A DNA stretch of 64,000 nt from Archangium violaceum. Lineage in GTDB: Bacteria > Myxococcota > Myxococcia > Myxococcales > Myxococcaceae. Positions 19,827-25,171 of this stretch are shown here, in pieces. The stretch is from positions 10,109,501 to 10,173,500 of the forward strand of contig NZ_CP069338.1 of assembly GCF_016859125.1 (NCBI RefSeq), in the 5' to 3' direction. A program made the translations under genes and the position numbers. The first letter of the stretch is position 1; the number at the start of each line of letters is the position of its first letter. A model generated the notes under the pieces. It was not told where the DNA came from. It saw only the letters and a program-made list of their open reading frames with translations, and ran no database searches.

Positions 19827-20525
19827 ATGGAGCTGCGCGCGGACAGGCTGTCGGTGCTACGAGGCGAGAGGCCCGTCCTCCGGAACTCGAGCTGCACGCT
19901 TCCGCCCGGCAGCCGCGTGCTCATGCTGGGACACTCGGGCGCGGGCAAGACGACGCTGTTCAAGGCGCTCGCGGGGCTGGTGACACCGTCCAGTGGGCAG
20001 GTGCTCTGGAATGGCGAGGACGTGGCCCGGATGGCGCCCACGGAGAAGCGCGCGCGGCAGGCGGCGTTCGGCATGGTGTTCCAGACGGATGCCCTCTTCG
20101 ACTCGCTGACGGTGCGCCAGAACGTGCTGCTGCCGCTGGAGCGCCGGCGAGTGCCCCGCGAGGAGGCGGAGGCACGCGCGGACGAGGTGCTGCGCGCGGT
20201 GGGCCTCACGGAAGCGGCGGACGCCCTGCCCGAGCGGCTGTCCGGAGGCATGCGCAAGCGGGCCGGCATCGCGCGGGCGCTGGCGGCGAGGCCCTCGGTG
20301 CTGCTGGCGGATGACCCCTTCGCGGGGTTGGATCCGGGCACGGCGCGGCAGGTGGCGCGGGTGCTGCTGGAGGTGGCCGGGAGCGGCTCGCTGATCGTCG
20401 CCGCGCCCGATGTGCCCCCGGAGCTGCCGCTCGCGCGCTGGCTGTACCTGCGGGACGGAGCGCTGCTGTACGACGGCCCCCCGGCTCCGGAGGTGGAGAC
20501 GCTGACGGACGAGGCGCTCGCATGA
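19827..20525 (+). CDS. MlaF-like ABC ATPase 1 with degenerate catalytic site
   Basis: A 232-aa ATPase of the MlaF family (phospholipid or toluene-tolerance ABC importer/exporter). Walker A GHSGAGKT (35-42), Q-loop GMVFQTDALFD and signature LSGGMRKRAGIARAL (138-152) are canonical. Two catalytic positions are not: Walker B reads VLLADDPFAGLD, with Asp163 where the catalytic Glu belongs, and the switch-loop His is replaced (IVAAPDV, Pro194 at the aligned position). On its own a homodimer should hydrolyse ATP poorly. The second MlaF in this cluster has the opposite defect, suggesting they pair. It overlaps the MlaE1 start by four bases. Confidence 0.85.
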   Translation: MELRADRLSVLRGERPVLRNSSCTLPPGSRVLMLGHSGAGKTTLFKALAGLVTPSSGQVLWNGEDVARMAPTEKRARQAAFGMVFQTDALFDSLTVRQNVLLPLERRRVPREEAEARADEVLRAVGLTEAADALPERLSGGMRKRAGIARALAARPSVLLADDPFAGLDPGTARQVARVLLEVAGSGSLIVAAPDVPPELPLARWLYLRDGALLYDGPPAPEVETLTDEALA

Positions 20526-21298
20526 GCGCGGCGCTGGCCTGGGTCGGACAGGAGACGCTGGGCGCGGTGCGGGCCGTGGGAGCGCTGGCGCTGGTGCTGG
20601 CGAGGACGGTGCTGGCGCTGGCGCGGATGGAGCGCCGCGAGTTGCTGCGAGGGCTGGAGGAGTTCGGCTGGGGCTCGCTGCCGCTGGCGCTGGCGACGGG
20701 GGCGCTGACGGGGGCGACGGTGGTGGTGCAGACGTCGCTGTACGTGCAGCGCTTCGGGGCGCGAGGGGTGCTCGGGTGGGCGGCGGGCTACGCGGTGCTG
20801 TGGGAGTTCGGCCCGCTGCTGCTGGGATTGGTGATGGCGGCGCGGCTGGGTGCGCGCAACGCGGCGGAGCTGGCGACGATGCAGGTGGGCGGGCAGCTCG
20901 AGGGCCTGCGGGGCATCGGGTTGGATCCCTTCGCGGTGCTGGTGGCCCCGCGCGTGGTGGCGATGACGGCGAGCGTGTCGGCCCTGTCCGCCCTCACCTT
21001 CCTGGTGGCGGTGCTCTTCGAATCGATGGCGGCCTTCTTCACCATGGGGCTGCCGGTGCGGGCCTTCTTCGACAGCTTCGAGCACATGCTGCACGTGACG
21101 GACATCCTGGGCGGCGTGGTGAAGGCGAGCGCCTTCGGGCTGGCGATCGCGCTGGTGTCGACGGCGGTGGGACTGAGGGCCCGGGGAGGCGCGAGGGCGG
21201 TGGGCCAGGCGGCGGCGGGCGCGGTGGTGATGGGGTGCGCGGCCATCTTCCTGTTGGACTTCGTGCTCACCACCACGCTGGCGATGTGGCTGAGCTGA
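20522..21298 (+). CDS. MlaE-like ABC permease 1
   Basis: A 258-aa permease of the MlaE family. It has about five or six membrane helices and the family signature region WEFGPLLLGLVMAARLGARN followed by AAELATMQVGGQLEGLRGIG and DPFAVLVAPRVVAM. It differs from the more canonical MlaE2 downstream (REFGP...AELSTM...EQVEALE). MlaE normally dimerises in the MlaFEDB complex, so two divergent MlaE subunits fit a heterodimeric channel. It is translationally coupled to MlaF1. The downstream gene converges on it, with only 21 bases between. Confidence 0.87.
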   Translation: MSAALAWVGQETLGAVRAVGALALVLARTVLALARMERRELLRGLEEFGWGSLPLALATGALTGATVVVQTSLYVQRFGARGVLGWAAGYAVLWEFGPLLLGLVMAARLGARNAAELATMQVGGQLEGLRGIGLDPFAVLVAPRVVAMTASVSALSALTFLVAVLFESMAAFFTMGLPVRAFFDSFEHMLHVTDILGGVVKASAFGLAIALVSTAVGLRARGGARAVGQAAAGAVVMGCAAIFLLDFVLTTTLAMWLS

Positions 21299-21319
21299 GC
21301 CCCCCTGGCCCGCGTGAGC

Positions 21320-22486
21320 TCACGGCCTGCGCATCACGCGCTGGTTTCCGGAGAACGCATCGATGGTCACGATGACGTTATTCGAGCTCCGCTCGAAGAG
21401 GCCTGGCGTGTAGTTCTGGGTGCTGCCGGTCCAGATCGCGCTCGTGCCCGACCAGGTCTCGAAGTTCGTGGTCGTGCTGACGTACCCGACGTGGCACTGC
21501 CGTTGCGCCGGGGACGTGCTCGAGAGATCGGGCGCCGTGGTCTTGTCCTCGTCGGTGCAGAAGGCGACGCCCACGGGACCATTGCCCACCCGGATGGCGT
21601 AGGGCGCGTAGGCGTTGTAGCGCCGCCCGGTGCCCGAATGGATTCGCGACTGGTAGACGGTTCGGCGCATCGAGTCGTCCCAGGTCCTCCCGCCGTCCCA
21701 CGACTGGGTGGAATGAATGACGTTGGCGCGGACTCCACCCGTCGGGAAGGGCTCGACGCCCTCGGCGACCACCATGAGGCGATCTCCGCCGAGCCGCACG
21801 ACGGTGGGCATTCCCTCGCGGGACAGTGCTCCAGCCGCCTTCTCCCGCGAGACAGTGACGACGCCGTACGCGGTCCAGGGGCCGGTCCTCCCGTTGCGGC
21901 CCTGCATCGCGATCCACTGGTGGCCGGGATAGCCCCTGGCCGCGGCCAGCTCCTCGGAGTCGTAATAGACCTGGAGGTCGCCGTTGGCCCGGAGGAAGAG
22001 GAACGGCGCGCCGACGAAGCGGGAGACGGGTCCCACGACGGTGCTGTCGTAGACCCAGCTGTTGCCGTCGTTGTCGCTCCGGGTGACGGTGACGCGGAAC
22101 TGCCCGTTGGCATGCTCGCGGAAGGCACAGAAGATGGTGGCCGTGCCGGGGATGCGGAGCATCGTCACATCGCCGAAATCGACGGCCGCGTTCTTGGCCA
22201 CGGAGCCGTGGCGGAACCAGCTCGCGCCCTCGTTGCTACTGGCCCAGACCTCGATCTCGTGTCCAGAGCTGCGCGGGCCGATCAGCCACCCGTCGGAGCG
22301 GCGGACGATGCTGCGGATGGGCGCTGGACCGCTTGCCTGGAGGACGGTCCAGCCCGCCCCCGTCAGTGCTTCTTCGCTCCGTACGGCGGGTTCGTGGGCG
22401 CCACCAGCGTCCCCGTCGGAGCCGCACGCGGAGAGGAACGCGGTGAAGAGGAGGGACGCAGCCACTGCTCCAAGTCTCTGGTTCAT
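21320..22486 (-). CDS. sialidase-like (Asp-box) secreted lipoprotein
   Basis: A 388-aa predicted lipoprotein (signal ending SLLFTAFLSAC). The mature part has several Asp-box-like turns of the sialidase/BNR fold (SSNEGASWF, SDNDGNSWVY, SWDGGRTWDD) regularly spaced, indicating a six-bladed beta-propeller. No clear arginine triad of true sialidases was identified, so glycan hydrolysis is not assured; binding is equally possible. The gene is antisense inside an otherwise co-directional mla-like cluster, splitting MlaF1-MlaE1 from MlaE2-MlaF2-MlaD, and was probably inserted later. Confidence 0.72.
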   Translation of the reverse strand: MNQRLGAVAASLLFTAFLSACGSDGDAGGAHEPAVRSEEALTGAGWTVLQASGPAPIRSIVRRSDGWLIGPRSSGHEIEVWASSNEGASWFRHGSVAKNAAVDFGDVTMLRIPGTATIFCAFREHANGQFRVTVTRSDNDGNSWVYDSTVVGPVSRFVGAPFLFLRANGDLQVYYDSEELAAARGYPGHQWIAMQGRNGRTGPWTAYGVVTVSREKAAGALSREGMPTVVRLGGDRLMVVAEGVEPFPTGGVRANVIHSTQSWDGGRTWDDSMRRTVYQSRIHSGTGRRYNAYAPYAIRVGNGPVGVAFCTDEDKTTAPDLSSTSPAQRQCHVGYVSTTTNFETWSGTSAIWTGSTQNYTPGLFERSSNNVIVTIDAFSGNQRVMRRP

Positions 22487-22692
22487 GATGCCTGCCTTCT
22501 GGGTCGCCGCGGGGGCCGAGGAGACGAATGGACCGCTGGCGGTTCCAGGGAAAGGACGGCCCCTGCCCTCCGCCGTCCCAAGAAAAAAGCTCTTCCCAGG
22601 CCGGGGAGACGGCGAGGAGACGGAGCCAGCCAGCCCCATCGGCACCGTGCTTCCGAGGGGTTGCGCATGGCTGGTAGCATCCCAGCGCCCCC

Positions 22693-23436
22693 ATGAACCT
22701 CCTCGCCTTCCTCGGAGCCCCGACGTTGATGCTCGCGCGCGCGGTGAGGGCGAGCGTGCGCGACGGGCTGTCCTGGCGCGAGTGCGTGAACCAGTTGCAT
22801 GAGCTGGGCGCGCGCAGCACGTGGCTGGTGGCGTCGGGCATGGCCTTCTTCGGGGCGGTGCTGGTGACGTTCGCGGACAGCCAGGCACGCAAGGTGACGG
22901 GGAACCTGCCGGTGGTGGGCCCGCCCTACTTCGAGCTGCTGGTGCGCGAGTTCGGCCCGGTGGTGTCGGCGCTGCTCGCGGCGGCGCGCGCGGGGGCGAG
23001 CCACAGCGCCGAGCTGTCCACCATGAGCGTGAACGAGCAGGTGGAGGCGCTGGAGATGTCGGCGGGAGACCCGTACGCGGACCTGGTGGCGCCGAGGGTG
23101 GTGGCGGGGCTGCTGGGGGTGCCGCTCTTGTGCGTGGTGGGAACGATGGCGGCGACGCTGTCGGCGGTGGCCACGGCGAGCTGGGTGTTCGGGGTGGACG
23201 GGACGGCCTTCATGGACGCGCGGTACGTGGACGGGTGGGATCTGCTGGCGGGGCTCGCGAAGGGAGCGGGTTGCGGCCTCTACATTCCCCTGGCCGCGGC
23301 GGTGGCGGGCCTGTCCGCGCGCGGAGGCGCCGAGGCCGTGGGCGAGGCCACCACGCGCGGGGTGGTGGCGGCGTGCTTCGGCTGCCTGCTGATCGACTTC
23401 GTGGTCGCGCTCGGCTTCCAGGCGATGGGGGTGTGA
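22693..23436 (+). CDS. MlaE-like ABC permease 2
   Basis: A 247-aa permease with the canonical MlaE motif block: VREFGPVVSALLAAARAGAS, then SAELSTMSVNEQVEALEMSA, then GDPYADLVAPRVVAGLLGVP. About six hydrophobic helices and a soluble N-terminal helix. It lies six bases upstream of MlaF2, in one operon with MlaD. Together with MlaE1 it gives two different permease subunits for one MlaD. The start at 22693 matches family length. About 205 bases separate it from the divergent sialidase-like gene, enough for its own promoter. Confidence 0.88.
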   Translation: MNLLAFLGAPTLMLARAVRASVRDGLSWRECVNQLHELGARSTWLVASGMAFFGAVLVTFADSQARKVTGNLPVVGPPYFELLVREFGPVVSALLAAARAGASHSAELSTMSVNEQVEALEMSAGDPYADLVAPRVVAGLLGVPLLCVVGTMAATLSAVATASWVFGVDGTAFMDARYVDGWDLLAGLAKGAGCGLYIPLAAAVAGLSARGGAEAVGEATTRGVVAACFGCLLIDFVVALGFQAMGV

Positions 23437-23442
23437 GCGGGG

Positions 23443-24165
23443 ATGCTGCGCTTCTCGGAGGTGGAGGTGACCTTCGAGTCCGGCCGGCGGGTGCTGGCGG
23501 GGCTGAGCGCGGACCTGTCCACGCACGAGCTGACCTTCGTGGCCGGGGCGAGCGGTGCGGGCAAGAGCGTGTTGTGCCGGTTGGCGGTGGGACTGCTGCG
23601 GCCGGAGGCGGGCCGGGTGGAGCTCTTCGGCGCGCGGGTGGACACGCTGCCCGAGCGGGCCCTGCGTCCCCTGCGTCGGCGTGCGCCCTACCTGGTGCAG
23701 GGCCCGGCGCTGCTCGACTGGCGGACGCTGCGGGAGAACGTGGCGATGGCGGCTCCGGGTCTCTCACCGGACGCGGTGCACGAGGCGCTGGCACAGGTGG
23801 GATTGGAAGCGGTGGCCGAGCGGCTGCCCACCGAGTTGGGACCCGGGGCGAAGAAGCGGGCGGCCATCGCCCGGGCGCTGGCGCTGCGGCCGGAGTACCT
23901 GTTGCTGGACGAGCCCACCACGGGCCTGGATCGAAGAGCGGCGGCGCAGGTGGAGGAGGTGCTCGCCTCGCTGAAGGCGAGAGGGCTGGGCGCACTGGTG
24001 GTGTCCCACGACTACCGGCTGCTGAGGAGGCTGGCGGACAAGGTGCTGGTGGTGGGCGGGGGGCGCTGCGCCTTCCTGGGCACACCCGAGGCGTTCCTGG
24101 CATCCTCCGAGCCGGAGCTGCGGGCCCTGACGGCGCCCTTTCTGGAGGCCGCATCGGATGGATGA
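23443..24165 (+). CDS. MlaF-like ABC ATPase 2 with degenerate signature motif
   Basis: A 240-aa MlaF-family ATPase. Walker A GASGAGKS (35-42), Walker B YLLLDEPTTGLD with Glu157, and the switch His189 (VVSHD) are intact. The signature motif that should read LSGGM reads LGPGA (132-136), losing the Ser and one Gly. This mirrors MlaF1, which has a good signature but bad Walker B and H-loop. A heterodimer would have one fully consensus site (MlaF2 Walker A/B/H plus MlaF1 signature) and one doubly degenerate site. Its stop overlaps the MlaD start. Confidence 0.86.
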   Translation: MLRFSEVEVTFESGRRVLAGLSADLSTHELTFVAGASGAGKSVLCRLAVGLLRPEAGRVELFGARVDTLPERALRPLRRRAPYLVQGPALLDWRTLRENVAMAAPGLSPDAVHEALAQVGLEAVAERLPTELGPGAKKRAAIARALALRPEYLLLDEPTTGLDRRAAAQVEEVLASLKARGLGALVVSHDYRLLRRLADKVLVVGGGRCAFLGTPEAFLASSEPELRALTAPFLEAASDG

Positions 24166-25171
24166 GCGTCGCTTGGAGATGAAGGTGGGCGGGCTCGTGC
24201 TCGTGGCGCTGGCGGGGGTGCTCGGGCTGCTGTGGCTGATGGGCGAGCTTCGGGTGGGCCGCGACACGGTGCTCTCGGTGGACTTCAGCCACACGGGCAA
24301 CGTGGTGAAGGGCGCGCCGGTGAAGCTGGGCGGCGTGGTGGTGGGCCGGGTGGAGGAGATCCACCTGGAGCCGGACCGGAGGGACACGCGGGGCCAGCCG
24401 CTGCCAGTCCGGATGGGGCTGTCGGTGAAGCCCGAGGCGCTGGCGGCGCTGCGGGAGGACACGCGGGTGACGGTGGCCACGGTGGGGCCGCTGGGCGAGC
24501 CCTACCTGGAGCTGAACCCGGGCTCCGCGTCCGCCCCTCCCCTCCCCGCAGGCGGCGCGCTGCGAGGCACGGATGCACCGCGGCTGGACCTGGTGGCGCA
24601 ACAGCTCTCCGCCTTCCTGGACGTGGCGAGCGGCGCGCTCGCGGAGGATCCGCAGGGGCTCCAGACACTGGCGAGCAACGTGTCACGGCTGACGGGAACG
24701 CTGGACGGCGTGCTGAACGAGAACCGGGGAGACCTGAAGACGCTGACGGCGGAGCTGACCGCGGCGTCGAAGGACCTGCGGGCCCTGGCGAAGCTCGCGC
24801 GGGAGACCCTGCAGCCCGGAGGCAAGGGGGCGCAGTTGCTGGGCGACGCGGCGGAGACGGCGGCGCTGATGAAGCGGGAGCTACCCGGCATCTCCGGCTC
24901 GGCGGCGAAGACGCTCAATGGCTTGTCAATGATGACGGCCGGGCTCGACGCGAAGGATGGCGAACGGCTGAAGCTGGCGCTGGAGCACTACACGGCGGCG
25001 GGCGAGAAGCTCGACCAGATGGCCGCGCGAGCGGACCGGCTGCTCACGCGCATCGAGGCTGGAGAGGGCACGGTGGGCGCGTTGCAGAAGGACAAACAGG
25101 TCTACGAGGATCTGCGTAGCCTCCTGTCCGACCTGCGCAAGCACCCGTGGAAGGTGCTCTGGAAGGACTGA
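24158..25171 (+). CDS. MlaD/MCE-domain substrate-binding protein
   Basis: A 337-aa MCE-family protein: one N-terminal membrane anchor (residues 10-28), the MCE domain (about 38-120: SVDFSHTGNVVKGAPVKLGG, VVVGRVEEI, then TRVTVATVGPLGEPYLELNP), then a long helical tail (about 150-320) with heptad-like repeats, as in longer MCE proteins that form a periplasmic tunnel or needle. It would collect or deliver lipids to the MlaE channel. It starts inside the MlaF2 stop region (8-base overlap). It is the only MCE gene in the cluster, consistent with one complex built from both MlaF/MlaE pairs. Confidence 0.86.
   Translation: MDERRLEMKVGGLVLVALAGVLGLLWLMGELRVGRDTVLSVDFSHTGNVVKGAPVKLGGVVVGRVEEIHLEPDRRDTRGQPLPVRMGLSVKPEALAALREDTRVTVATVGPLGEPYLELNPGSASAPPLPAGGALRGTDAPRLDLVAQQLSAFLDVASGALAEDPQGLQTLASNVSRLTGTLDGVLNENRGDLKTLTAELTAASKDLRALAKLARETLQPGGKGAQLLGDAAETAALMKRELPGISGSAAKTLNGLSMMTAGLDAKDGERLKLALEHYTAAGEKLDQMAARADRLLTRIEAGEGTVGALQKDKQVYEDLRSLLSDLRKHPWKVLWKD

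Follow-up and report, generated by a model that had tools for sequence, protein, structure and literature searches.

The closest described systems are the MlaFEDB transporters and the mycobacterial Mce1 complex. In E. coli MlaF acts as a homodimer, its E170Q variant fails to complement, and LSGGM is the ABC signature typical of Mla (PMC7367683). The Mce1 system pairs a permease heterodimer, YrbE1A-YrbE1B, with a homodimer of the ATPase MceG (PMC9882608). Human degenerate-site ABC proteins always have a broken signature, followed in frequency by a change of Glu to Asp, often along with changes in the H-loop (PMC7756269). We here describe a locus of Archangium violaceum (phylum Myxococcota) which, judged from its genes and motifs and with a probability of about 85%, would encode one mixed Mla/MCE complex, where two different ATPases, MlaF1 and MlaF2 (F1 and F2), sit on two different permeases, MlaE1 and MlaE2 (E1 and E2), with MlaD, and form two ATP sites, of which one is catalytic and the other degenerate.

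The window analysed comprises 64,000 nucleotides of a genome that is a single contig of 12.68 Mb. Five transporter ORFs are present, all on the plus strand in the order mlaF1, mlaE1, mlaE2, mlaF2 and mlaD, and they clearly match the Pfam families ABC_tran, MlaE, MlaE, ABC_tran and MlaD, respectively. The features are, in window coordinates:

19827..20525, plus strand: mlaF1, ABC ATPase (PF00005, 9e-36), LSGGM signature intact, Asp163 and Pro194
20238..20252, plus strand: LSGGM, the signature of F1 and one half of the ATP site predicted to be consensus
20522..21298, plus strand: mlaE1, permease (PF02405, 1e-51), in the E1 clade that spans Myxococcota and Bdellovibrionota
21320..22486, minus strand: inserted ORF, predicted lipoprotein (PF13088, 2e-4, under the curated cut-off)
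22693..23436, plus strand: mlaE2, second permease (PF02405, 6e-45)
23443..24165, plus strand: mlaF2 (PF00005, 5e-24), Walker A, Glu157 and His189 intact, LGPGA signature
23836..23850, plus strand: LGPGA, the degenerate signature of F2 and one half of the ATP site predicted to be degenerate
24158..25171, plus strand: mlaD, single MCE protein of 337 aa (PF02470, 3e-13)

The two ATPases (232 aa for F1 and 240 aa for F2) are about 32% identical, and the two permeases, both well above the PF02405 cut-off, are 38% identical. The MCE domain of mlaD scores 50 bits, where the cut-off is 25. The AF2 model of F1 is a full NBD with a pLDDT of 90, and its best match in the PDB is MlaF (6xbd_I, TM 0.89). 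For MlaD the model is of low confidence and predicts an N-terminal helix, an MCE domain with its core at about residues 37-140, and a long helical C-terminal half. No STAS (MlaB) match was detected among the locus ORFs tested by Pfam, and a consensus scan revealed no prominent promoter. The whole genome holds four MlaE and three MlaD, hence there is no spare MlaD by which the locus could be split into two complexes. MlaF motifs are intact at the other two Mla loci of the genome, L086 and L087, which are both canonical. The sequence-only reading of this DNA had pointed to two diverged MlaE and a single MlaD in the locus, with a separate MlaD elsewhere as a possible objection, and both points came out in its favour.

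F1 carries a Walker A motif at residues 35-42 (GHSGAGKT), the signature LSGGM at residues 138-142 and an intact D-loop, while Asp163 occupies the position of the catalytic Glu (ADDP, residues 161-164) and Pro194 that of the switch His (AAPD, residues 192-195). F2 has its Walker A at residues 35-42 (GASGAGKS) and keeps the catalytic Glu157 (LDEP, residues 155-158) and the switch His189 (VSHD, residues 187-190), and its signature reads LGPGA (residues 132-136). These positions agree with the sequence-only reading, which had MlaF1 keeping Walker A and signature with Asp163 for the Glu and no switch His, and MlaF2 keeping Glu and His next to LGPGA. All motif changes map to one predicted composite ATP site, that of the F1 Walker motifs and the F2 signature. 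A signature broken on one NBD, Glu and His lost on the other and one site apparently intact is the constellation of degenerate-site ABC proteins.

The gap of 1394 bp between mlaE1 and mlaE2 (21299-22692) holds the minus-strand ORF for the predicted lipoprotein, with its weak BNR/sialidase-like match, which is unrelated to the transporter and lies outside it. In the remaining five species of the genus the E1-E2 gap spans about 1.3 to 9 kb with varying cargo, such as a TPR-like and a DUF4215-like protein in L068, and the gap is an insertion hotspot in this genus (the present locus, L068 and L228-L231). Outside the genus the insert is absent, and the five genes are contiguous in nearly all relatives. 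The complementary motif pattern survives the split of the operon by the insert.

We read the motifs in loci of Myxococcota genomes and of 58 Bdellovibrionota genomes, which gave 135 distinct F2 and 130 distinct F1 sequences. A profile search of the genome contigs with the F2 alignment returned, among the matches listed, mostly ordinary MlaF along with loci from Bdellovibrionota and Myxococcales. The signature of F2 is broken in all 135 sequences; its Walker A, Q-loop Gln and Glu are intact in 135 of 135 each, as is the His in all 134 where it could be read. For F1 the signature is intact in 130/130, the catalytic Glu is lost in 119 and kept in 11 of the 130, and the switch His is lost in 124 of 128. 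Walker A of F1 departs from GxxGxGK[ST] in 17 of 127 sequences, and two F1 have lost the Q-loop Gln. Control MlaF loci (n = 76) have Walker A, Q-loop Gln, Glu and every readable His intact, with an odd signature in two. As 130 F1 and 135 F2 share the pattern and the 76 controls follow the consensus save for these two signatures, we do not consider it to be due to chance. All defects fall in the site of F1 Walker and F2 signature, and the other composite site is free of defects in every readable sequence. The tally supports the earlier suggestion that the pair would have one consensus and one doubly degenerate site. P-values of Fisher's test are tiny, but the sequences are related and the counts are not independent.

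One of the two control loci with an odd signature is a tandem fusion. In a Proteobacteria MAG (SYOX01000301.1; L171:4828-6687) two tandem MlaF-type ATPase domains lie in one ORF, the first canonical and the second with ISNGQ and intact Glu and His; this fusion is outside the F1/F2 loci studied. An Elusimicrobia MAG (L149:5197-6771) has a lone MlaF with the signature LSVGM and all else intact.

On the tree, about six changes are needed for the catalytic residue, four for the His and two for the signature. The step from Glu to Asp in F1 is the most variable, as the Glu is retained in basal lineages and in several F1 that are unlinked. One genome (G164, locus L218) has an F1 with the Glu and a His, and there it is mainly the F2 signature that is broken. 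With the F2 signature always broken, the F1 His nearly always lost and the F1 Glu variable, the degeneracy of F1 is graded and not all-or-none. This ranking matches that of the human proteins (PMC7756269), except that loss of the His is as common here as loss of the Glu.

In the tree both F1 and F2 are placed among the sequences of MlaF. The F2 of both phyla group in a single clade (SH-aLRT 90), and the F1 of Myxococcota, the unlinked ones included, in another (SH-aLRT 86). In a quick tree the Bdellovibrionota F1 branch next to, and just outside, the Myxococcota F1; F1 may have a single origin across both phyla. E1 and E2 each form one clade with members in both phyla (SH-aLRT 94 and 76, respectively), and together they are split from single-copy MlaE (SH-aLRT 91). 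The simplest account of these trees would be an old set of paralogues that predates the split of Myxococcota and Bdellovibrionota or was exchanged between them.

Among 195 Myxococcota genomes, F1 and F2 are found together in 88 and are both missing from 101, with F1 only in three and F2 only in three; F2 of G193 and G194, and likewise eight F1, were taken from the reading of the loci and not by the cut-off. Five of the six genomes with a single gene are cases of contig ends or incomplete assemblies (G059, G143, G156, G116 and G148). The genome G191, which is 100% complete, carries E1-E2-F2-D (L226) with the F2 signature LGPGQ, and a search of it found no F1. Four genera (g2, g3, g4 and g11) are wholly without F1, F2 and the paired permeases.

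The set may also be broken up within a genome. Six Myxococcota genomes have an operon E1-E2-F2-D and an F1 elsewhere without adjoining MlaE or MlaD (L253, L254, L257, L261, L262 and L264). In three genomes of genus g26, E1-E2, F2 and F1 lie at three separate places and both motif sets are kept, as read for F1 in two genomes (L246 and L247) and for F2 in all three (L238-L240). The Bdellovibrionota have the gene order F1-F2-E1-E2-D, with the motifs ISGGM, DDP and TND in F1 and ISYGM, DEP and SHD in F2. Seven Bdellovibrionota without a nearby F1 were checked; six have it farther upstream or on another contig, always with DDP and with Asn at the His position, and the seventh (G294) is cut off by the end of its contig. 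In a Myxococcales MAG (G199; L380 and L396/L141), F1-E1 and F2-D are on different contigs, and this F1 has Asp for Glu, but a His is kept. The reading frames of F1 and F2 stay open across the relatives. What has been observed is the gene content, the motif pattern and how it is conserved, and the co-retention of F1 and F2.

The co-occurrence of the F1 and F2 motif changes, which the sequence-only reading had proposed to check in myxobacteria, thus holds across Myxococcota and Bdellovibrionota. Loci where only one of the two ATPases is degenerate, which that reading had named as evidence against itself, are seen in part, with the almost intact F1 of G164 (L218). In G191 there is an F2 without an F1.

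The latter genome, the F1 genes outside the operon in several genomes and the fact that no MlaB/STAS gene was seen adjoining the locus are in line with another arrangement, where E1-E2-D is driven by a homodimer of F2 whose signature is weakened, and F1 acts as a pseudo-ATPase with a regulatory role, bound otherwise, for instance replacing MlaB. We find this improbable, as the SGG signature kept by F1 in 130 of 130 sequences and its intact D-loop are mainly relevant to a half-site with a partner. Further, the signature columns of F1 are invariant in the order alignment (entropy 0 bits) while the switch region drifts (1.1 bits); the reverse is found for F2, with 0.6 bits in the signature and 0.26 bits in the switch region.

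It could also be that there are two homodimeric transporters, F1-F1 on E1-E1 and F2-F2 on E2-E2, with one common MlaD and with the odd motifs tolerated. The Myxococcota order F1-E1 / E2-F2-D is readable as two half-systems, which in the genus of the window are physically parted by the insert, and both MlaF (PMC7367683) and MceG (PMC9882608) act as homodimers. Against this, an F1 homodimer would lack the Glu and His, and an F2 homodimer a proper signature, at both sites and in more than 100 genomes. As the E170Q variant of MlaF does not complement (PMC7367683) and F1 is without that very Glu, an F1 homodimer is unlikely to work. We rejected two separate transporters, to which we give a very small chance, on the complementary fashion in which F1 and F2 are degenerate, the Bdellovibrionota order F1-F2-E1-E2-D, the single MlaD available and the joint gain and loss of F1 and F2.

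Ordinary decay of a redundant paralogue, which would fit a genome with another two Mla loci that are canonical and have an intact MlaF (L086 and L087), is contradicted by the conservation data and has next to no probability, since the same changes are kept up in both phyla, the F1 signature and the F2 Glu and His are never lost, the frames are open, and whole genera without one gene are also without the other.

We hence prefer the single mixed complex, which would be built of a MlaE1-MlaE2 permease heterodimer, a MlaF1-MlaF2 ATPase heterodimer and a MlaD ring. In a head-to-tail F1-F2 dimer, the consensus site would consist of Walker A, Q-loop, Glu and His of F2 together with LSGGM of F1, and the degenerate site of Walker A and Asp163 of F1, where the His is absent, together with the broken F2 signature. 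Hydrolysis of ATP at the rate of transport would most likely take place at the consensus site only. At the degenerate site ATP would be bound but turned over hardly or not at all, which may stabilise the dimer and lend asymmetry to the cycle, as with TAP, TM287/288, CFTR and the ABCC proteins. We infer heterodimer assembly, one-site hydrolysis and the stoichiometry of this complex, as well as a lipid substrate and the direction of transport. It seems probable to us, too, that we are dealing with an ancient class of MCE transporters of common source in both phyla, with an obligate MlaF1-MlaF2 heterodimer and one catalytic site, and that a CFTR/TAP-like engine has arisen independently within the MlaE-fold family, where the signature breaks differ by phylum (mostly GPG versus SYG).

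It has long been an unanswered question why so many ABC proteins retain an ATP site that is dead, and it has mostly been studied with multidrug-type exporters and CFTR. Another fold family with this putative design would let that question be tested, given its natural intermediates (the F2 signature is broken everywhere, the F1 His gone nearly everywhere and the F1 Glu changed to Asp in most). MCE lipid transporters, hitherto described with matching ATPase halves, could then have two different halves, and this in two phyla whose predatory members are well known. A literature search of partial coverage gave no previous description of a system with two MlaF, nor of the design suggested here, known from CFTR and TAP, for the Mla/MCE family.

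The locus resembles MlaFEDB of E. coli, Pseudomonas and Acinetobacter (type VIII ABC) in its MlaE-family permease, MlaF-family ATPase and MlaD. The canonical MlaFEDB has one MlaF and one MlaE, both as homodimers, with MlaF motifs intact, whereas we find two diverged ATPases and two diverged permeases. MlaF has 269 aa with a C-terminal handshake tail and is accompanied by MlaB; the ATPases here have 232 and 240 aa, and no MlaB was seen at the locus. With Mce1 the locus shares a pair of MlaE-family permeases with an MCE protein (PMC9882608), which the genes suggest to be a heterodimer here as well. In contrast, Mce1 uses a single ATPase, the MceG homodimer, and a ring of six different Mce, and the present locus has two diverged ATPases and one MCE gene. 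Judged from its motifs, it is like TAP1/2, TM287/288, CFTR, the ABCC family and ABCG5/G8 in having one consensus and one degenerate site, and the degenerate-site ABC proteins (PMC7756269) show the same division, with Glu to Asp and a lost His on one NBD and a broken signature on the other. The described degenerate-site proteins are of other folds and mostly exporters, whereas here the design would be joined to an MlaE fold and an MCE protein.
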